Shown here in pieces: positions 10,124 through 55,069 of a stretch of 64,000 nt of DNA. The notes beneath the pieces were generated by a model. That model was given only the letters and a program-made list of their open reading frames with translations. It did no database searches and had not been told where the DNA came from. Position numbers and translations under genes: made by a program. The stretch comes from a virus. The stretch lies in IMG/VR virus record IMGVR_UViG_3300045971_000356, positions 1 to 64,000 of that record; one strand, written 5' to 3'. How positions within the stretch are numbered: position 1 is the stretch's first letter; each line of letters starts with the position of its first letter.

Positions 10124-10197
10124 GTGATATAGCATAGACAGATATGCAGGGGTCTCATAAGCCTCACAGGAAGGAGCGTTGCCTTCTATCACCACCA
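10123..10197 (+). tRNA. tRNA with CAT anticodon, odd T-loop
   Basis: Perfect acceptor GGTGATA/TATCACC, anticodon arm GGGGT-CTCATAA-GCCTC (CAT), T-stem GAAGG/CCTTC with the non-standard loop AGCGTTG, ACCA end. Confidence 0.65.
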
Positions 10198-10208
10198 GTA
10201 AATACTTA

Positions 10209-11816
10209 ATGCGATTATGGTTTTTAATCTTTTTAGCACTCACATTGCTACCTGCTTACGCTCAAGACACGAGCCAACCGCAGGTAGTTTTTTCTGCGAT
10301 TAAAGATACTGACCAGCCCATTGAAGTACAGATGGAGACAGCAAGAGAGGCACTTAGGAACAATGACTTTGATACAGCAATAACCATACTGAATACAGTG
10401 CTGCTACTACCTAACAATAAGTTTACACAAGAGGCGCAAGCCCGCATTGGATTTGCGTACGAGAGATCTAAAAAGTACTCTAAAGCAATAGGCGAGTATA
10501 ACGCTTACATTGCCATGTATCCCAACAGCGGCATAGTGGAGTCAATGCGTAGGCGTTTACTGGCGCTTGAGATTTTAACGCCACAGCACGATGTAGCAAA
10601 AGCAATACCCGATGGACCGCGACAAATAAAAGAGCATAAAGTGGAAGCATCGAGCTCTACTTATTACATTGCTTCAGGTACTGACTCAACCTTGATTTCC
10701 AATGTACATGCGAACGGTGTGTTCAAAGATAATGAATACACTACAAAAGTAGTAGTGCGAGAAAATGTACACACTGACATTAAACCTAAAGTTGAATCTA
10801 AATACACGCTCAACACTGCCACTGTTGAAATTGAAAACAGTTATAAAGACTGGGAATTAAAACTTGGACGACAATCTTCTGATTACGGTGTAATGTCTAA
10901 GTTTGATGGTATAGCTGCAACGTATGGGTACGGGCACGACACTGAGTACACCTTAGTGCTCGGACAGCCATTAATGAACAATGCAACATCATCACGTAAA
11001 ATGTTTGGTCTTCACACTCACTTTAACTTAGGTGAGTTTACGTCAGCCACTGCATACTACAACCACCAAACTGCTGACAATTTTGAAGAGCGCTCAGCAT
11101 TGGGCACAGAGTTTAGGTACTTTAAGAACGAACTATCCGTGACAGCAGCAGCAGAGTACGACATAGCATATCAGCAACTAAACTCAGTGACATTTAACGC
11201 TCATAAAGACAACAACTCTAATAGATGGTTTGTGCTATACGATCGCAGAAAGTCTCCTGTGCTGTATGCCGACAAGGCGTTGGCACTGGGGTTGTTTAAC
11301 GGAGCAAACATGCCATATAATTCTATTGCAGAGGCATTAGCAAGGTCTGGTATGACAGCAAGCGAGTTGCGTGATTACATTGTGTCAGAAACAGCAGTGT
11401 CGTCAACATTTGCAATAGGTGGAGCAATAGCAGTAAACACATGGACCTTAGGTGGTGATATACAATCTGCAACAATGACAGGAACTGGTACCGAGCCGCA
11501 GTCATCTAAGATTAACTCAATATCGTTAAACGCATTTAACCCGAATGCTTTTCTAAAGCATTCAGTTAACGCTATTGTATCTTACTCTACGTCAGAAAAC
11601 GGTATATATACATTGACATTGTTAGACAGCACCGATATAGCAAAAATAAGATTAGACACTACTGCTCGTATTACTAACAAACAAAACAAACTATTATCGT
11701 TTAGTACACATCATAAACTGACTAAGGATGCGTTTTTAGAACTTCAACTTATGCTAAGTAAGATACGAGACGAGATAGACAAAACATTTATTTTAGGGTT
11801 TAGATATGAGTTTTAG
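10209..11816 (+). CDS. TPR-containing outer-membrane porin
   Basis: About 535 residues. Residues 1-18 are a signal peptide (MRLWFLIFLALTLLPAYA). Residues about 25-115 form two to three TPR helices (AREALRNNDFDTAITILN, GFAYERSKKYSKAIGEYN). The rest (about 150-535) is strand-rich and ends in GFRYEF with terminal Phe, an outer-membrane barrel. The late promoter GTAAATAC is at 10198 and the first ATG after it is taken as start; no good ribosome site is visible. The stop overlaps the start of the first multiheme cytochrome gene, so the genes are co-translated. By position it could be the pore of a porin-cytochrome conduit like MtrB/PioB, although it lacks their N-terminal CxxC and is shorter. Confidence 0.65.
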   Translation: MRLWFLIFLALTLLPAYAQDTSQPQVVFSAIKDTDQPIEVQMETAREALRNNDFDTAITILNTVLLLPNNKFTQEAQARIGFAYERSKKYSKAIGEYNAYIAMYPNSGIVESMRRRLLALEILTPQHDVAKAIPDGPRQIKEHKVEASSSTYYIASGTDSTLISNVHANGVFKDNEYTTKVVVRENVHTDIKPKVESKYTLNTATVEIENSYKDWELKLGRQSSDYGVMSKFDGIAATYGYGHDTEYTLVLGQPLMNNATSSRKMFGLHTHFNLGEFTSATAYYNHQTADNFEERSALGTEFRYFKNELSVTAAAEYDIAYQQLNSVTFNAHKDNNSNRWFVLYDRRKSPVLYADKALALGLFNGANMPYNSIAEALARSGMTASELRDYIVSETAVSSTFAIGGAIAVNTWTLGGDIQSATMTGTGTEPQSSKINSISLNAFNPNAFLKHSVNAIVSYSTSENGIYTLTLLDSTDIAKIRLDTTARITNKQNKLLSFSTHHKLTKDAFLELQLMLSKIRDEIDKTFILGFRYEF

Positions 11817-12318
11817 CAAGTTACTGATTGTAATATTTGTAAGTTGGTATGTTACACCTTCTATAGCAGCAGAATGTACCGCGTACGAAAAATCGCACCC
11901 ATCATTTTTGCTTGACGGAGCACACTTGTCCACGGGTAAGTGCCAAACGTGCGCAAGCTGTCACATCAACAGTATCTTCAACGGCACACCACGCTCATGC
12001 GTAACATGCCACAATGGAGATCCAGCACGTAACACCATTGGGAGACCAGCGTTACACATACCTACACAGCTTATCGAGTGTAATGCCTGCCACAAAACGG
12101 TATCATTTGCTACATCTGTTACTATGAATCACGTTATACTCGGGTCAGTGAAATGTACAACATGCCACTCAACAGCAAGCCCGCGATATCTTGGCAACCA
12201 GCAACGCATGTCGTTAACTCACGATCAGCGAACACCGGTGCCCACAGACTGCTCACAAGTTGGGTGCCACCGCCCCGGCGGTACAAAAGGTGTGCTATAC
12301 AAAAGTTGGGACAACTAA
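11806..12318 (+). CDS. Multiheme c-type cytochrome, four or five hemes
   Basis: 170 residues. Signal peptide to about residue 21 (SIAA). Four CxxCH motifs (CASCH, CVTCH, CNACH, CTTCH) plus a C-x4-CH (CSQVGCH) that may bind a fifth heme. Shares with the next gene the segments SHPxFLLDGAHLSTG and LHIPTQL, so the two are paralogues. Hemes would be attached in the periplasm by host Ccm. It overlaps the porin stop codon by 11 bases. Predicted soluble electron carrier. Confidence 0.85.
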   Translation: MSFSKLLIVIFVSWYVTPSIAAECTAYEKSHPSFLLDGAHLSTGKCQTCASCHINSIFNGTPRSCVTCHNGDPARNTIGRPALHIPTQLIECNACHKTVSFATSVTMNHVILGSVKCTTCHSTASPRYLGNQQRMSLTHDQRTPVPTDCSQVGCHRPGGTKGVLYKSWDN

Positions 12319-12360
12319 TCAGACTAAATAACTATGCTTTTAAGTTTTGACTAAGAACGC

Positions 12361-12368
12361 CTAAATAA
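12361..12368 (+). promoter_or_regulatory. Late promoter CTAAATAA
   Basis: T4-type late element 40 bases before the heptaheme cytochrome gene, followed by TTAGGACG near the start. Confidence 0.4.
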
Positions 12369-12408
12369 TTATGACCACTTGGTCATTACACATTAGGACG
12401 TTTATACC

Positions 12409-13137
12409 ATGCTTAAAAAGATATTACTTAGTTTAGCACTTATTGTAGCGGGCACATTGGGAACTGCTACTACAGCATCTGCGGCAGAATGTACCTTATA
12501 TGAGCAATCCCACCCAGCGTTCTTATTGGACGGGGCTCATCTATCAACTGGGCAATGCAACACCTGTGCATCATGTCACAAAGGTGGTGTATTTGTGGGT
12601 ACTCCAAAATCATGTACTGCGTGTCACAACGGTGACCCAGCAAGAACTACAGTAGGTAGGTCAGCATTACACATTCCAACACAGTTAACTGAATGTTCTT
12701 ACTGCCACCGCACAACTGCGTTTACGACCAACGTAAACATGGACCACACGCAAGTAACTCAGCAACGTTGCGACACTTGCCACAATGGATCATACTTGAA
12801 CTACGGTAAAAACTACGGTGGAGCAAAACAAAAAGGTCCATTGCACATTCCAACTACTGCTGATTGTTCATCGTGCCACACTACACAAAGCTGGTTAGTT
12901 AACCACGCAACAATCCATGCTGGCGTGACTACAGGTTGCGTAAACTGCCACAACGGCACTTACGCACCAGGCAAATCATCGTATGCTGCTGGACACCCAG
13001 TAACATCTGATGCTTGCGAAACTTGCCACAGCATTGATAACGCATTCAAGTGCGCCTCTGCTTACGACAAAGTAAAAGAATTCTTTGCGGTGTTGATACA
13101 CAAGGCAAAGATTTATTCCAACCATGCGTTTGCTTAG
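12409..13137 (+). CDS. Heptaheme c-type cytochrome
   Basis: 242 residues. Signal peptide to about residue 26 (TTASAAE). Seven CxxCH motifs: CASCH, CTACH, CSYCH, CDTCH, CSSCH, CVNCH, CETCH, spread to about residue 210, with extra histidines in LHIPT and NMDHT elements that could be distal ligands. This HIPT-x-x-C-x-x-C-H style is common in betaproteobacterial and Geobacter multiheme proteins (family knowledge). The C-terminal 30 residues are helical and basic. Its last 14 bases overlap the cytochrome b gene. Expected in the periplasm, passing electrons between the membrane cytochrome and the porin. Confidence 0.9.
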   Translation: MLKKILLSLALIVAGTLGTATTASAAECTLYEQSHPAFLLDGAHLSTGQCNTCASCHKGGVFVGTPKSCTACHNGDPARTTVGRSALHIPTQLTECSYCHRTTAFTTNVNMDHTQVTQQRCDTCHNGSYLNYGKNYGGAKQKGPLHIPTTADCSSCHTTQSWLVNHATIHAGVTTGCVNCHNGTYAPGKSSYAAGHPVTSDACETCHSIDNAFKCASAYDKVKEFFAVLIHKAKIYSNHAFA

Positions 13138-13561
13138 TTTCAAAGACCTATATATTCTATCATCAGATTGGCATGTAAGTTATTGGACAGGTGTAGTTTG
13201 CGGCATAATAATGCTGCTATTGTTTACGTACCCGATTCGCAAATATTTCTTTGCGATTCGTGGTATCGGTAAAATGTCAACATGGTTTAACGCACACGTG
13301 GTGTTAGGCACTGCGATGACATTTCTGTTGATTTACCATACTAACTTTTTCCATACTCACTCGTTAAACGGTACCTTTGCCTTTTACAGCATTGTGGCAG
13401 TAGTAGCAAGCGGATTTGTGGGAAGGTATATTTTGCGTAGAGTACATAATCACAAATTTTGGGCTGACTTGTTCAAACATTGGCATGTAGCGCATGTACC
13501 CGTGATTTATATGTCGCTGGTTCTTGTGTTGATTCACGTTTATGCTATCCACGTATATTAA
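13124..13561 (+). CDS. Four-helix cytochrome b-like membrane protein
   Basis: 145 residues with four hydrophobic segments. Two segments each carry a histidine pair 14 residues apart: NAH...IYH and VAH...LIH, the H-x13-H pattern of b-heme ligands in cytochrome b561/ferric-reductase-type proteins. It would therefore hold two stacked b hemes across the inner membrane. It starts inside the cytochrome gene, so it is translationally coupled. It is the natural entry point for quinol or cytoplasmic electrons to the multiheme proteins. Exact family not identified. Confidence 0.75.
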   Translation: MRLLSFKDLYILSSDWHVSYWTGVVCGIIMLLLFTYPIRKYFFAIRGIGKMSTWFNAHVVLGTAMTFLLIYHTNFFHTHSLNGTFAFYSIVAVVASGFVGRYILRRVHNHKFWADLFKHWHVAHVPVIYMSLVLVLIHVYAIHVY

Positions 13562-30259: not shown

Positions 30260-30985
30260 ATGTCATTTATTTATATTGTTACTAATTTATTGGATGGTAA
30301 AATTTACATTGGCAAATCTAAATACAATAATCCAACTTATTATGGGTCTGGGTTGAAAATTGGATATGCAATTAAAAAACATGGAATAGAAAATTTTAAA
30401 AAAGAAATTCTCGAAGAGTGTGCCGATGACATGGTAAGTGAGCGAGAAATTTACTATATAGAACAGTATAAGTCAACTATAGATCATATTGGATATAATA
30501 TAAGTAAAGGTGGCGAGGGCGGCGCCCATTATTGGAGTTCGTTAACTGAAAATGAAAGAAAACAGCAGGGTAGGAAAATTAGTGCAGCATTGACTGGTAA
30601 AAAATATGGGCCAAGGTCAGAAACTACTAGGAAAAATCAAGCGTTGAGCTACAACCGAACACCTGAAATTTTAGAAAAGAGAGCAGCTGGAAAGCGTAAA
30701 TTTTATACTTGTGTAAACCATAATAGTTTGGAAATATATATTACTAAAAATCTCCCAGTTTGGTGCACTGAGATGAGTTTAAATCTCGGAGCCATGCAGC
30801 ATAATGCGAGAACACGAAAAAAACTGTGCAATAAAAATTGGTCATGCCGTTTTGGTGTTCTTGCCGGCGATGTCACGGATATAGTTACTATGCTCAATGA
30901 AGAAATTAGGCAGGCTCGAGCTATAACTAAAGAAAAAATCATTAACAAAGGAAAAAATGGCAACTGCAAAAATAGTTATAAATGA
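30260..30985 (+). CDS. GIY-YIG homing endonuclease
   Basis: 241 residues. FIYIVTNLLDGKIYIGKSK at the start is the GIY-YIG core, followed by YYGSG and the acidic residue in SEREIYYIE. One NUMOD3-like repeat, then a basic C-terminal region. ATG 30260 has GAAAGG upstream and is preferred to 30236. It lies between the gene at 29053 and uvsW and overlaps the uvsW start by 29 bases. Confidence 0.8.
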   Translation: MSFIYIVTNLLDGKIYIGKSKYNNPTYYGSGLKIGYAIKKHGIENFKKEILEECADDMVSEREIYYIEQYKSTIDHIGYNISKGGEGGAHYWSSLTENERKQQGRKISAALTGKKYGPRSETTRKNQALSYNRTPEILEKRAAGKRKFYTCVNHNSLEIYITKNLPVWCTEMSLNLGAMQHNARTRKKLCNKNWSCRFGVLAGDVTDIVTMLNEEIRQARAITKEKIINKGKNGNCKNSYK

Positions 30986-31970
30986 CGAAGCAAATTGTAA
31001 AATTTTGGGATTGGATTTGAATACAAGGAAGAAACTTGTAGGCAAGTTTAAGTACGAGATACCTGGAGCCAGATTCACCCCCGCATGTAAACTTGGGCGT
31101 TGGGATGGGTGTAAAACATTTGCCCAACTTGGCGGTAGTACCTATATCAATTTGCTTACAGAAATCTTGCCTATGCTTGACAGTGCTGGTTACGATGTCA
31201 CGCTTGAGGACTTGCGTGAGTATAATACCACGTTTGAGTTTGACGCAGTCCACGAAAAAAGTTACGCACACAAAGCATGGCCCAAAGGGCACGAGCATGA
31301 GGGCGAGCCCATTATGCTGCGTGACTATCAGGTCGAGGCAATCAACACATTCTTAGAAAACACACAGAGCATTCAGTGCCTTGCGACTGGTAGTGGTAAA
31401 ACTATCATGACAGCAGTGCTGAGCCACAAGTGCGAGCCCTATGGCAGAACAATCGTCGTGGTGCCAAGCAAGGACTTGGTGCTGCAAACAGAGCGCGACT
31501 ACATTAACATGGGACTTGATGTGGGCGTGTTCTTTGGCACACGAAAAGAATACACAAAAACGCACACTATTTGCACATGGCAATCACTCAACTCACTCTT
31601 TAAGAACACAAAGAACGGTGAAGCACAGATTCCGTTTGGTGAGTTTATTGAAGATGTCGTATGCGTGATGATCGACGAATGCCTTGCTCCAGGAACTTTG
31701 GTCAAAACTCCGTCTGGAAATGTAGCTATTGAAACATTAGTTCCCGGTGATAAAGTATATTCATTTAATGAATTATCTAATGAATTTATTATTGACGAGG
31801 TAGTTAAGTTACATGTAAATTTACCTAAAACTAATAGTGCTGAAATGTATGAATTTGAATTAGACGATGGAAGTCTGATTCAAATAACCGGCAATCACAA
31901 AATGCTAACTGATCGTGGATGGGTTGCTGCGAGAGACATAAATGAAGGGGATAATATACGCAGTCATTGA
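30957..31970 (+). CDS. UvsW helicase, N-terminal half, with N-intein
   Basis: 337 residues. 1-241 is the N-extein: a UvsW-like N-terminal domain, the Q-motif region (MLRDYQVEAINTFL), Walker A ATGSGKT near residue 147, and the beginning of the DExH box (VCVMIDE). At residue 242 (base 31680) the intein starts: CLAPGTLVKTPSGN...LVPGDKVYSF (block A) and GNHKMLTDRGWVAARD (block B), ending after 96 residues at a stop. UvsW is a 3'-5' helicase that resolves recombination intermediates and restarts forks. The second half is at 32907. Cys1 and the block B His are present, so trans-splicing should work. Confidence 0.9.
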   Translation: MATAKIVINDEANCKILGLDLNTRKKLVGKFKYEIPGARFTPACKLGRWDGCKTFAQLGGSTYINLLTEILPMLDSAGYDVTLEDLREYNTTFEFDAVHEKSYAHKAWPKGHEHEGEPIMLRDYQVEAINTFLENTQSIQCLATGSGKTIMTAVLSHKCEPYGRTIVVVPSKDLVLQTERDYINMGLDVGVFFGTRKEYTKTHTICTWQSLNSLFKNTKNGEAQIPFGEFIEDVVCVMIDECLAPGTLVKTPSGNVAIETLVPGDKVYSFNELSNEFIIDEVVKLHVNLPKTNSAEMYEFELDDGSLIQITGNHKMLTDRGWVAARDINEGDNIRSH

Positions 31971-32013
31971 CATTGTATCTACTATAAATACATACAATAA
32001 AGGCGTTTACATT

Positions 32014-32910
32014 ATGAGCAAATTATGGAATGATAGATTATTAACAAGTGGAGCCACATTGAGAATTATGACGTTTTCTCAAAATTCTGTAATTTTAAGC
32101 AATGGTTTTACATTATCAGACAAAAATAGTGTAGCACGATTTACTTCAAGATTAAAGCAGGGATGGAATATTGATTTAGCATATCATGAAGACGAAATAG
32201 TTCGCCTCGCCTATATAAAGACTCACAAATCTGAATTAGCCAGAAAAGGTGGCATATCATGTCAAGCAATGAATCCACATATTAGGGAAATTGCAACAAA
32301 AAATTTAGCAACTGCAAGAGATAATGGTAGTAATCTTGCATACCTTAAAAAACGTGGGCAGTGGAATAAAGGATTGACTAAAGAAACGGATTCACGAATA
32401 TTGGCTATCAGCGCCCGGGCAACTGGCAGTGGGAATCCGATGTTTGGTACTAAGCATTCTGAAGAATATAAAGCAACTCAATCCAAGACAATGAAGGAAA
32501 ACATTAAGTCTGGCAAATTTACTCCAAGCATTAAAAATAGTAAAACGCATTGGCAAGTTGAATTTGATGGTAAAAAGTTTAGAAGTTCGTGGGAAGCAGC
32601 CTGGTCTGCTTTACATCCATCACATTTATATGAACAGATTAGAATTAGTTATTGGGTTGCCAATGTTGAAAAGATCTACATTGTAGACTTTTATGATCCT
32701 GCTGTAAACACTCTAATAGAGATTAAACCGGTAGAACATACATATAGTGAACAATTTAAAGCAAAGAAATTATGGGCAGAAAAATGGGCATTAGAGAACA
32801 ACGGATATTATAAAGTAATAACCCAGGAGTATTTTAAAGATAATATGCCAGCATTGCTTTTGACTAATCTGCCAGACGATGTTAAAATGAAAATAAGGAA
32901 TATTAAATGA
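32014..32910 (+). CDS. Homing endonuclease between intein halves
   Basis: 298 residues. Has RKGGISCQAMNPH, a basic linker, NUMOD-like repeats (GNPMFGTKHSEEYKA), then FRSSWEAAWSAL and IVDFYDPAVNTLIEIKP, a Vsr/PD-(D/E)xK-type nuclease of the class reported in fractured genes with split inteins. Late promoter TATAAATA at 31983. Its stop codon overlaps the start of the C-terminal half (ATGA at 32907), so that half depends on its translation. It is related in its nuclease motif to the endonuclease at 3680. Confidence 0.75.
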   Translation: MSKLWNDRLLTSGATLRIMTFSQNSVILSNGFTLSDKNSVARFTSRLKQGWNIDLAYHEDEIVRLAYIKTHKSELARKGGISCQAMNPHIREIATKNLATARDNGSNLAYLKKRGQWNKGLTKETDSRILAISARATGSGNPMFGTKHSEEYKATQSKTMKENIKSGKFTPSIKNSKTHWQVEFDGKKFRSSWEAAWSALHPSHLYEQIRISYWVANVEKIYIVDFYDPAVNTLIEIKPVEHTYSEQFKAKKLWAEKWALENNGYYKVITQEYFKDNMPALLLTNLPDDVKMKIRNIK

Positions 32911-33746
32911 AGGTTATTAGAAAAACATTAACAGAAAAAACGCCAATAACATACAATTTGCACGTTAAAGAGAATCATAATTATGTGGCAAACGGATTAG
33001 TGGTATCCAATTGTCACGGCATTAAAGCAGACGCATTGCTTGGCATGCTAACTGGTGTGATGGCACATATTCCAATACGCTGGGCAGTGACGGGCACGAT
33101 CCCCAAAGAAGATTTTGAGAAGCGGTCACTACAGGTTGCCATTGGCGAGGTGGTGGGCACAATCAAGGCAAGCGACTTACAAGATAAAGGTGTGCTGTCA
33201 AACTGCCACGTTAACATTGTGCAGATGATTGACCACCCAGAATTTAAGCAGTATCAGGATGAACTAAAATATTTGCTTGAGACAGAAGGTCGCCTCCAAT
33301 ACATGGCTGCACTGATTGAGAAAGCAAGTGTGGACGGCAATACTTTGGTGCTGGTTGATCGTGTAGAAGCAGGCAAGACACTGGCGAGTTTGATCCCTGG
33401 CGCAGTATTTTTAAGTGGCGCAACTAAATCAGCAAACCGCAAAGAGCAATATGATTCCATTGCGACGACTAATAACGGCGTGACAATTTGCACGTATGGC
33501 ATTGCTGCGGTGGGCATTAACGTGCCGCGAGTGTTTAACGTGTTTTTGATTGAACCTGGTAAGAGTTTTATACGGGTGATACAGAGCATTGGCCGCGGTT
33601 TGCGCAAAGCGGAAGATAAAGACTTTGTCAACATTTATGACATTACGTCATCATGCAAGTTTGCGAAGCGCCATTTGACTAAACGAAAAGCATTTTACAC
33701 TGAGTCAAATTATCAATATAGTATTGTAAAAGTGGCGTGGCAGTAG
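32907..33746 (+). CDS. UvsW helicase, C-terminal half, with C-intein
   Basis: 279 residues. Residues 1-35 are the C-intein: YNLHVKENHNYVANGLVVSN ends with the block F/G pattern, His near the end and final Asn. The next residue is Cys (base 33012), the +1 nucleophile, and CHGIKA completes the DECH box begun in the first half. The C-extein holds motifs III (AVTGTI), IV-V (TICTYGIAAVGINVP) and VI (QSIGRGLRK). Joined exteins would be about 485 residues, near T4 UvsW (about 500). Confidence 0.9.
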   Translation: MKVIRKTLTEKTPITYNLHVKENHNYVANGLVVSNCHGIKADALLGMLTGVMAHIPIRWAVTGTIPKEDFEKRSLQVAIGEVVGTIKASDLQDKGVLSNCHVNIVQMIDHPEFKQYQDELKYLLETEGRLQYMAALIEKASVDGNTLVLVDRVEAGKTLASLIPGAVFLSGATKSANRKEQYDSIATTNNGVTICTYGIAAVGINVPRVFNVFLIEPGKSFIRVIQSIGRGLRKAEDKDFVNIYDITSSCKFAKRHLTKRKAFYTESNYQYSIVKVAWQ

Positions 33747-48247: not shown

Positions 48248-49407
48248 AAATTAGCGAGATTATAACAGAATCCAGAAAGCCTGCCTTCAAGTTGAATGAA
48301 GTTGGGATGAACCACGCGGAAGATATTATATTTTTTGAGGGGTCGGCTGGTGCTCTCCGTGTATTACAGAGCTTTAAGGCGCTGCCTAAGAAGAAAGACG
48401 AAGTGTTGACCATTAAATGGGACGGGCAAGTGGCGCTATACGCTGGTAGAACAGCGGATGGAACATTTGTGCTAACTGATATGGCAGGCTGGGGAGCAAA
48501 GGGCTATAATGGCATGTATACCTCTGCTAAAGAGTTTATTGCGCAAAAGCAAACTAAGGGTGGTAATCCAGACTTCTTGTCTAAGATCTCTGCAATATGG
48601 CCTATCGTTGAATCAGCAATACCTCCATCGTTCCGTGGTTTTATCAAGGGCGACGTAATGTGGTGGCCAGGCACACTAAAAGACACTGGCAAACGCTGGG
48701 TGTTTGGCGAAGGAACAACTACATATGAAGTTGACAAAACATCTGAGTTGGGTAGGCGAGTTGGCCAAGGTAAGGCAGGGCTAGCGATACACGGATTTTA
48801 CGATGCGTCAGTGGCAGGCTCCCCAGAGGAGCGCACTGCGACAGAACCAGCACCGTTACGCAATACAGCAGGGTTAAATCCTAACGGGGCATTGTGCGTT
48901 CTTGGCCCTGAGATTAAAGTTGAAGGCAATGTAGCATTAGACGGCAATAAGATGAAGGAAGTGACGCAATATGTGCGCAAAAACGCTAAAGTCATTGACA
49001 CTTTCCTTGATGTAAACACGCTAAAAGAACGCAAGCTAACCAGCTTGCCTAATATGCTGTATACATTCGTTAACCAACAGACACGCATACGAGACTTAGA
49101 TATGCTTGCTCATAAATTTCCAGCTTGGGTTCAGTCTAACCCTAAGTTGAGCAAAGCAATGGCACAAAATGTGATTGCTTACATACAAGAGACTGGAGCG
49201 GCATTGCAAACCGTGTTTAATGTGTTTGACGCAGTTACCACACTGAAGCTGGACATTATCAATCAACTTGACAATTCAAGCACAACGCTATACGCACACA
49301 TCAAGGGTGTTAAGGGCGGAGAAGGATATGTCGCTTCAAGTCCAGACGGTCACGTAAAATTAGTCAATCGTTCACATTTTTCAGCAGCTAACTTCGGCAA
49401 CCACTAA
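48244..49407 (+). CDS. ATP-dependent ligase-like enzyme
   Basis: 387 residues. Shared start MKISEIITES. Motif I KWDGQVALYAG (nucleotidyl-lysine, K-x-D-G) near residue 58, FIKGDVMWWP (motif III), and EGYVASSPDGHVKLV (motifs IV-V) near residue 360. This is the covalent nucleotidyltransferase fold of DNA/RNA ligases. With the preceding nucleotidyltransferase it could repair nicked RNA or DNA after injection. The head-packaging inference comes from the N-terminus. Confidence 0.7.
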   Translation: MKISEIITESRKPAFKLNEVGMNHAEDIIFFEGSAGALRVLQSFKALPKKKDEVLTIKWDGQVALYAGRTADGTFVLTDMAGWGAKGYNGMYTSAKEFIAQKQTKGGNPDFLSKISAIWPIVESAIPPSFRGFIKGDVMWWPGTLKDTGKRWVFGEGTTTYEVDKTSELGRRVGQGKAGLAIHGFYDASVAGSPEERTATEPAPLRNTAGLNPNGALCVLGPEIKVEGNVALDGNKMKEVTQYVRKNAKVIDTFLDVNTLKERKLTSLPNMLYTFVNQQTRIRDLDMLAHKFPAWVQSNPKLSKAMAQNVIAYIQETGAALQTVFNVFDAVTTLKLDIINQLDNSSTTLYAHIKGVKGGEGYVASSPDGHVKLVNRSHFSAANFGNH

Positions 49408-51668: not shown

Positions 51669-52310
51669 ATGTTTTTGAAGAAGTTATTTGCGGCCTTATT
51701 CGCTGTAAGTGTAGTTAGTGCTGGCGCCGGCACCATTGTAGGATCAGCACATGATTTTAGTGGTCAAGCATGGTCTCCGAATGCGCAAACTTGCGTGGCT
51801 TGTCACGCACCTCACGCAACAGCAGTTCTGGCAGATGCTCCACTTTGGAACCACGCATCATCAGTAGCAACATACACTGTTTACGCATCATCATCAATGA
51901 ATGCAACGGTGGGGCAACCTGGCTCAACCTCCAAACTTTGCTTGTCATGCCATGATGGTACGGTGGCAGTTAATTCTTTTGGCGGAGTGACTGGTACTAC
52001 AATGCTGACTGGCGGTTCAAATCTCAGCACGGTATTAACTAATGACCATCCGATCGGTTTTACTTATGATGCTGCGTTAGTAACAGCAGACGGTGCGTTG
52101 GCTCCAATTACAAATACAGTTACCTTAGGTTCAGGTACTAAAGTTAAATCTGGACCCACTGTAACTATAGCATCTGCTATGTTATATGCGGGTAAAGTTG
52201 AATGCGCATCATGCCATGATGTACATAATACATTTACCGCTGCAACTGGTAAATTGGTAAAAGTGTCAATGGCATCAAGTGCATTGTGTACCACTTGCCA
52301 CACTAAATAA
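51669..52310 (+). CDS. Tetraheme c-type cytochrome
   Basis: 213 residues. Signal peptide to about residue 20. CVACH, CLSCH, CASCH and CTTCH motifs, spaced widely, with H-D-F near the start: the doubled-CxxCH pattern of periplasmic cytochromes. A strong AGGAGGAAAT site and exact late promoter imply high late expression, unlike the cytochrome cluster at 10.2-13.6 kb, which it does not closely resemble. Ends at a strong terminator. Confidence 0.85.
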   Translation: MFLKKLFAALFAVSVVSAGAGTIVGSAHDFSGQAWSPNAQTCVACHAPHATAVLADAPLWNHASSVATYTVYASSSMNATVGQPGSTSKLCLSCHDGTVAVNSFGGVTGTTMLTGGSNLSTVLTNDHPIGFTYDAALVTADGALAPITNTVTLGSGTKVKSGPTVTIASAMLYAGKVECASCHDVHNTFTAATGKLVKVSMASSALCTTCHTK

Positions 52311-52416: not shown

Positions 52417-52710
52417 ATGAATAGAATTTTAGCGGCTTTGCTTATTGCTCTTGTAGTAATACCAGTGATGGCGAAAACAAACAAAAACGATAGTGCATAC
52501 ACTGAAAAGTATTCGTTTGAAGAAAAGATAAAAGATCAATACAATAACGGCAAAAATGATATAAATTTTGACAAAAATGAGTATGCAGATTATAGCAGCA
52601 GCAATGATCATTATACTCCGACAAGTCCAGTGCCAGAACCGACATCTTGGATGATGATGCTTGCCGGCGGAATAATAATTAACCGCCTTCGCAAAAAGAT
52701 GCATAAATAA
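52417..52710 (+). CDS. PEP-CTERM surface protein
   Basis: 97 residues. Signal peptide at the N-terminus (MNRILAALLIALVVIPVMA), a short polar middle, and a C-terminal PEP-CTERM sorting signal: VPEPTSW, a hydrophobic span, then NRLRKK. Host exosortase would cut there and the protein would be exported or surface-attached. AAGGAAATTAACGG before the ATG; late promoter ATAAATAA at 52389. Requires a host with exosortase (EpsH/XrtA type). Confidence 0.75.
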   Translation: MNRILAALLIALVVIPVMAKTNKNDSAYTEKYSFEEKIKDQYNNGKNDINFDKNEYADYSSSNDHYTPTSPVPEPTSWMMMLAGGIIINRLRKKMHK

Positions 52711-52714
52711 TATA

Positions 52715-53041
52715 TTGTTGTATATCCCTTCAAAGCGAAGGAATTCTGGACGGGGATGCGAATTCCCCCTCCTCCACCAAAAGTGCTCTAAATTGAGTAG
52801 TAATACTTGATCAGGTTTGGCATCCCGGGTAAACTCTCCAGCAATGGACTCGTCCGTATACGCCGTGAGTACTTTTGATGGGGGAGACTAGTTTCGACAG
52901 GGTTAGATAGTAGAGACGGCAACTCAGTAGGCGATGACTGTATAAATCAAGCAAATCAAACTAAAGGCAAACGATAGTTTATATTCCTTAGCCGCTTAAG
53001 GCATGGGTGGGGAGGCTGTACCCTGTAACACTTTAGCAGAG
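52715..53041 (+). ncRNA. Two-piece permuted tmRNA gene
   Basis: The acceptor piece lies first (about 52715-52779): T-arm GGGGA-TGCGAAT-TCCCC, acceptor strand CTCCTCC, discriminator A and CCA (ending 52779). An intervening segment (52780-52879) follows whose ends AAAAGTGCTC and GAGTACTTTT pair. The coding piece begins at 52880 with GGGGGAG, complementary to the acceptor strand over seven pairs, then the TTTCGACAGGG signature. The tag frame starts with GCA at 52967: (A)ANDSLYSLAA then TAA at 52997. tmRNA rescues stalled ribosomes and tags the product for proteolysis. Circular permutation is known from alpha-, some betaproteobacteria and cyanobacteria. Confidence 0.9.
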
Positions 53042-53067
53042 ACCCGCTTCACGGCGGGTTTCTTTTG
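53042..53067 (+). terminator. Terminator of the tmRNA gene
   Basis: ACCCGC-TTCACG-GCGGGT followed by TTCTTTT. Confidence 0.8.
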
Positions 53068-53094: not shown

Positions 53095-53102
53095 TATAAA
53101 TA
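53095..53102 (+). promoter_or_regulatory. Late promoter TATAAATA
   Basis: Exact late consensus followed within 80 bases by a terminator and no ORF. Confidence 0.6.
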
Positions 53103-53107
53103 CTTTA

Positions 53108-53181
53108 TGTAAATCGAGTACAACTATTGAGTACAGCAGGAACTCGTAACCTGTATTGAGGCAACTTAGGTTGCCTTTCTT
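53108..53181 (+). ncRNA. Candidate small RNA
   Basis: Between the late promoter at 53095 and terminator AGGCAAC-TTAG-GTTGCCT (53159-53176) plus TTCTTTT. Contains CGAGT...ACTCG and ACAG...CTGT pairings. No start codon with a frame longer than a few codons. Confidence 0.5.
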
Positions 53182-54616: not shown

Positions 54617-55069
54617 ATGCGTGTATCTGAGATAACAGAATCCTTTGATAGTAATGTTCCCTACTCTGTAGTTAGAGCAGGGAATAATTTGTTCACGACT
54701 CGCGCAGACATAAACGGTAGAATGGTTACATTTAACGCAGTTGGTGAGCTGGACTATAATGGCGGAAGAGATGTAATTTGGGAAATTGATTTCTCAGAGA
54801 AAACTAGTCAAACTGGGATTACTTTTGCTAAAACTGGGCATGGTGGAGAGATGCAAGTATTTTCGTTTGTAATTGCTTCGATAAAAGAACTGATTTCCAG
54901 GTATGCTCCAAATGTGATTGAGTTTGCCTCACACAAAGCAGACGGTAATAGAACAAAATTGTATCAACGCATGTTATCACGCATTGCGCTACCAGGATAT
55001 CATGTTGCTCCAACTAGTAACTCAGACGCATCTGCTGACGATTTTTTTAGAATAGAAAAGGTTAGATAA
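54617..55069 (+). CDS. GNAT-like protein with targeting motif
   Basis: 150 residues. Starts MRVSEITES. The C-terminal part has IASIKELISRYAPNVIEFASHK...NRTKLYQRMLSRIALPGYHV, a layout known from phage acetyltransferase-fold proteins. The acetyl-CoA loop (Q/R-x-x-G-x-G/A) is not obvious, so catalysis is uncertain. Predicted to be packed in the head. Confidence 0.55.
   Translation: MRVSEITESFDSNVPYSVVRAGNNLFTTRADINGRMVTFNAVGELDYNGGRDVIWEIDFSEKTSQTGITFAKTGHGGEMQVFSFVIASIKELISRYAPNVIEFASHKADGNRTKLYQRMLSRIALPGYHVAPTSNSDASADDFFRIEKVR

Follow-up and report, generated by a model that had tools for sequence, protein, structure and literature searches.

The window, a 64,000-nt stretch that forms positions 1 to 64,000 of the IMG/VR virus record IMGVR_UViG_3300045971_000356, contains a complete permuted (two-piece) tmRNA gene on the plus strand at positions 52716 to 53063. 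In cmscan searches, this gene matches the Rfam families beta_tmRNA (RF01850; 119.6 bits, E = 8e-36, all 331 model positions) and tmRNA_permuted (RF04321; 119.4 bits, E = 1e-22, all 213 positions), well above the curated gathering cut-offs of 84 and 47 bits, respectively. These matches bear out the first-pass annotation, made from the sequence alone, which had proposed a permuted tmRNA of the beta type; beta_tmRNA is the best Rfam subtype. The CCA-bearing acceptor piece comes first, followed by a 100-nt spacer and the coding piece.

The acceptor (tRNA-like 3') piece (52716 to 52779, plus strand), delineated from the two Rfam models, the sequence, and the covarying linking helices, contains the 5' arm of the linking helices, the T-arm, the 3' acceptor strand CTCCTCC, the discriminator A, and an encoded CCA. 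The CTCCTCC-ACCA segment at 52769 to 52779 pairs with GGGGGAG at 52880 to 52886, forming a 7-bp acceptor stem that includes a G3.U70 pair. By the established tRNA-Ala identity rule, this pair is what alanyl-tRNA synthetase (AlaRS) reads. The T-loop is UGCGAAU, compared with the standard UUCGAnU, and differs at position 55. The UGC variant is seen in 54 of 209 virus-contig tmRNAs, suggesting that it is tolerated in phages despite being non-standard. The intervening sequence (52780 to 52879, plus strand), defined by its fold and by comparison of spacers from virus contigs, is exactly 100 nt long, as had been noted, and is presumably removed on maturation. Its matching arms, AAAGUGCUC (52780 to 52788) and GAGUACUUU (52867 to 52875), form a predicted 9-bp helix that prolongs the acceptor stem, and its 3' end is UGAU, immediately before GGGGG.

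The coding piece (52880 to 53037, plus strand; RF01850 and covariation) contains the 5' acceptor strand GGGGGAG, GUUUCGAC, the 3' arms of the linking helices (CAG at 52898 to 52900, GUU at 52902 to 52904, and CAAC at 52920 to 52923), the tag, and the 3' pseudoknot region. The tag reading frame (52967 to 52999, plus strand) was obtained by direct translation and alignment to the resume codon of the model. It starts at the resume codon GCA and specifies ANDSLYSLAA followed by a TAA stop (GCA AAC GAT AGT TTA TAT TCC TTA GCC GCT TAA). An intrinsic transcription terminator, found by a terminator scan and folding, occupies positions 53038 to 53063 of the plus strand, in agreement with the end coordinate of the gene. 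Upstream, a weak T4-late-promoter-like sequence, CATAAATA (52702 to 52709, plus strand), has its 3' end 6 nt from the gene. As a late promoter of the tmRNA it was rejected, since relatives do not conserve it and it overlaps the end of the upstream gene; it may be a coincidence. Some relatives have sigma-70-like promoters ahead of the tmRNA instead.

That this is a real permuted tmRNA gene, not a chance arrangement, is confirmed by several lines of evidence. A search pattern built from the acceptor end, the spacer, the start of the acceptor, and TTCGAC occurs once in the window and in none of 100 shuffles. The pairing of the acceptor stem and T-stem was partly used to pick the comparison set, so that their statistics are biased and were excluded as proof. 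This leaves the linking helices, which played no part in selecting the relatives, as the sole independent pairing test. Throughout the nearest clade (31 of 31 members), all three helices (GUUG/CAAC, CUG/CAG, and AAU/GUU) are paired, and two-sided changes are seen. One pair is C-G in 18 members and A-U in 13, the next is A-U in 17, C-G in 11, and G-C in 3, and a third is U-A in 28 and C-G in 3. Covarying pairs thus link the two pieces in relatives as well. A helix of at least 7 bp at the spacer ends is found in 88% of 289 virus-contig tmRNAs and in 10% of shuffles; the spacer from the window shows no unusual stability when folded by itself (z = -0.99), and the arms are significant only as a group. 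Just ahead of the coding piece, the spacer ends in TTGAT, CTGAT, or ATGAT in 236 of 297 cases, and this end looks like a conserved processing site, with the enzyme itself being inferred. ARAGORN, the usual annotation tool, misses the tmRNA at this locus (a false negative), so the gene would be absent from standard annotation.

The tag ANDSLYSLAA still begins with AND and ends in LAA, and it conforms to AND(S/E/D)x(F/Y)xLAA, a pattern common in phages. The most common tags on virus contigs, such as ANDEKFALAA and ANDSQFALAA, and the bacterial tags read for comparison, such as ANDENFALAA, share these ends. In Escherichia coli, the terminal LAA is the chief signal for ClpX. The earlier suggestion that the tag may change ClpXP recognition is unsupported, as the sequence gives no reason to expect such a change. 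Retargeting by the tag is unsupported at this locus; the idea has some merit elsewhere, since related phages differ sharply in tag length.

Permuted tmRNAs turn out to be common in phages, contrary to the rarity implied by the first-pass annotation. Two pattern scans of IMG/VR yielded at least about 120 stretches each, and among the matches listed many contigs with a permuted tmRNA are 140 to 340 kb long and several carry a T4 capsid gene. In a published survey of 133 unique phage tmRNAs, 53 had a two-piece structure (PMC9004378), and the tmRNA database includes 79 phage sequences (PMC11915505). The gene described here adds to the published phage permuted tmRNAs; it is an ordinary one and not the first of its sort. 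Stenotrophomonas phage Marzo, which has a cultured host, is reported to carry a beta-class tmRNA (PMC8928761). The permuted tmRNA of Marzo and IME-SM1 (MZ326868 and KR560069; PMC8928761) resembles the one in the window in its class, its location on a T4-like phage (theirs being 159 kb), its spacer with arms, and its encoded CCA; it differs in the tag (ANDDSYTVRIAA), in its distant sequence, and in belonging to another phage genus. The OM43 methylophage Melnitz also carries a two-piece tmRNA and is likewise a T4-like aquatic phage; no integrase is reported for it, and its authors put forward a rescue role (PMC9004378). However, the Melnitz ssrA is of the alphaproteobacterial type and is reported to lie under a glutamine riboswitch, whereas the gene in the window is of the beta type; cmscan found no riboswitch above the Rfam cut-off in the window. 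The gene order, tRNA-like domain, resume site, and tag all follow RF01850 and RF04321. Compared with the bacterial beta genes read, the window gene has a longer spacer (100 nt versus 24 to 42 nt) and the UGC T-loop.

The source record spans 166,302 bp and encodes T4-like replication proteins, including a UvsW helicase, a primase, and a DnaB-type helicase. Because no match to the T4 capsid family was found in it, the record may cover only part of a larger genome. Among named phages, the most similar DnaB proteins (~46 to 48% identity) come from jumbo phages, such as Pseudomonas phages MIJ3 and PA5oct, Agrobacterium phage Atu_ph07, and Sinorhizobium phage Phosso. No match to a permuted tmRNA was obtained in MIJ3, Atu_ph07, or SCTP-2, which are among the closest jumbo phages with names. 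Phosso has one (PV764938.1, 349596 to 350198), which shares the permuted form but differs in its very long spacer and its tag, ANDNVSTKVALAA; it is unannotated in record PV764938.

Judging from these features, the gene very probably represents a beta-type permuted tmRNA from a phage lineage of such genes and supports ribosome rescue via host factors. Rescue during infection, as suggested at the outset, is its most likely role. Host tRNA-processing enzymes would cut the transcript at UGAU/GGGGG and after CCA, and base pairing in the acceptor stem and the linking helices would keep the two resulting RNAs together. Once charged by host AlaRS, the molecule would be brought by host SmpB and EF-Tu to ribosomes that have stalled on broken mRNAs, where ANDSLYSLAA would be appended and the ribosome released, with the tagged product passing to host proteases of the ClpXP type. 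The phage would benefit because ribosomes would remain available at a time when host mRNA is being destroyed. SmpB (PF01668) is found in none of 31 virus records, including that of the window, nearly all of which carry permuted tmRNAs but may be fragments; the same profile does match in bacteria. Host SmpB is therefore presumably used. The gene in the window confirms a known pattern, in which a ribosome-rescue RNA is frequently encoded by large T4-like aquatic phages that seem to depend on host SmpB.

The lack of SmpB in these records would also suit an interfering RNA, that is, a phage tmRNA that competes with host tmRNA for SmpB and AlaRS, or whose tag evades host proteolysis, instead of rescuing ribosomes. 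There is a precedent in phage DS6A, whose tag-less tmRNA-like molecule inhibits host tmRNA (PMC11915505, PMC4131195), and tags in related phages are strongly changed in length and at the end. However, the gene in the window keeps both AND...LAA and the stop, together with the coding piece, the pseudoknot region, and the resume site, none of which a decoy would need, making interference improbable.

The origin of the gene is best seen from its relatives. In a FastTree tree of 194 distinct tmRNAs, the gene falls within a 31-member clade of virus-contig tmRNAs (local support 0.94). Eight sampled bacterial beta tmRNAs, the only bacterial sequences in this tree of ~200 nt, lie outside the clade and more than 1 substitution per site from the gene. 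The nearest sequences are all virus-contig tmRNAs (~85% identity per piece), and the one on a 167.6-kb phage contig (L054) is 0.29 substitutions per site away. A BLASTN search with the gene against 50,697 phage records gave no match, and the same search with the relative L206 reached Stenotrophomonas phages. In three close-relative phage contigs, a tmRNA lies between the same flanking genes as in the window, o6 (at 49407) and, where the contig extends that far, o11 (at 54617), and two other relatives, L291 and L302, have no tmRNA. From this combination of a virus-contig clade, synteny, and absence in some relatives, the gene is most likely part of a phage-borne tmRNA lineage and is gained and lost at that site; the comparison suggests that these rescue RNAs form a lineage that travels with phages. 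Recent capture from a beta-type host is not supported. A recent acquisition from the present betaproteobacterial host, with the gene now a decaying or neutral passenger, could appeal to the beta subtype, to a multiheme cytochrome in the window with a distant Gallionella homologue (28% identity), and to permuted-model matches above the cut-off in 5 of 60 Gallionellaceae and 4 of 120 members of the same order, but it is very unlikely given the nearness of virus-contig sequences and remoteness of the sampled bacterial ones, the shared syntenic position, the intactness of every helix, and the lack of a DNA match between a 20-kb stretch of the phage and 158 Gallionellaceae genomes.

Among the relatives are phages with much longer tags, unlike the gene in the window, which has an ordinary short one. 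Tags of 20 to 35 residues make up 53 of the 106 readable ones in one pattern-based set, and tags of at least 18 residues are found in 37 of 271 distinct tmRNAs in a broader set, in which 63 of 297 tags were unread; both counts depend on the set and are not frequencies. The long-tag tmRNAs (loci L406, L410, L413, L416, L434, L435, L441, L442, L446, and L466, as well as L429, L077, L203, L453, L306 to L308, and others) fall into at least three sequence families. In family B, which has the core SFTGNTV and usually ends in ALAA, the tag frame has a pN/pS of 0.21, compared with ~2 for the remaining two frames, a clear sign of purifying selection on the amino acid sequence of the peptide. In family A (GEVTVSGK...LAV), the signal is weaker, with a pN/pS of 0.74 in the tag frame, which cannot be told apart from the value in one other frame. 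The syntenic tmRNA in three relatives of the window phage has the tag A(N/K)TSTNSGxKVTVAKGFRFGGSKVAATEAAFA, and some long tags finish with a complete ordinary tag, as in ...GNTVANDSKFALAA. The long-tag genes score normally with the covariance models (~104 to 141 bits); the syntenic set scores 60 to 66 bits. Weak matches to long tags outside the tmRNA, among the matches listed for these loci, were taken as chance.

Long tags per se are not new, as Mycoplasma tags reach 27 residues. Conserved long tags in these phages do look new. No report of long tags on phage tmRNAs was found in the literature searched, to which access was limited; a translated search for the long tags in named phages gave no convincing match, and a search for exact matches to one family A tag pattern in 398 genomes of the same phylum found none. 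A tentative possibility is that permuted tmRNAs form a phage-borne lineage with an exchangeable tag cassette, in which conserved peptides of 20 to 35 residues replace or extend the 10-residue degradation tag (e.g., GEVTVSGKNVKFSARTAQRQSLAV and ADTFDFSAMSFTGNTVRGAANESRFALAA), and that these phages might use trans-translation to equip the products of stalled ribosomes with a functional peptide and not just a degron. Because tag sequence and length vary strongly among close phages, the steering of incomplete proteins by phage tagging becomes testable. The gene in the window is of modest interest; its long-tag relatives merit a separate study.

Positions 10179 to 13561 and 51669 to 52310 of the window contain what is possibly an electron-transfer set. 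It comprises three multiheme c-type cytochrome genes and, recognized by eye, both a membrane cytochrome-b-like ORF and a TPR-containing protein that might act as a porin-like partner. The one cytochrome compared with 50,697 phage records had no match there. Directly upstream of the tmRNA gene, positions 52417 to 52710 encode a small protein with a weak PEP-CTERM sorting motif just under the Pfam cut-off, for which a host with an exosortase would be expected. Downstream, at 53095 to 53177, a perfect T4-late-promoter-like TATAAATA lies ~60 nt ahead of an intrinsic terminator; no ORF of at least 80 aa intervenes, and this interval possibly encodes a small late RNA. The UvsW-type helicase is divided between two ORFs whose ends are intein-like and which are separated by an endonuclease-like ORF (30957 to 33746), and many more homing-endonuclease-like ORFs are scattered across the window. 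About 22 to 25 tRNA genes are spread over 26 kb (1174 to 26875). Finally, two adjoining ORFs at 18387 to 20851 have radical-SAM-like cysteine motifs and are followed by a hemerythrin-like ORF (20859 to 21224), all recognized by eye only.
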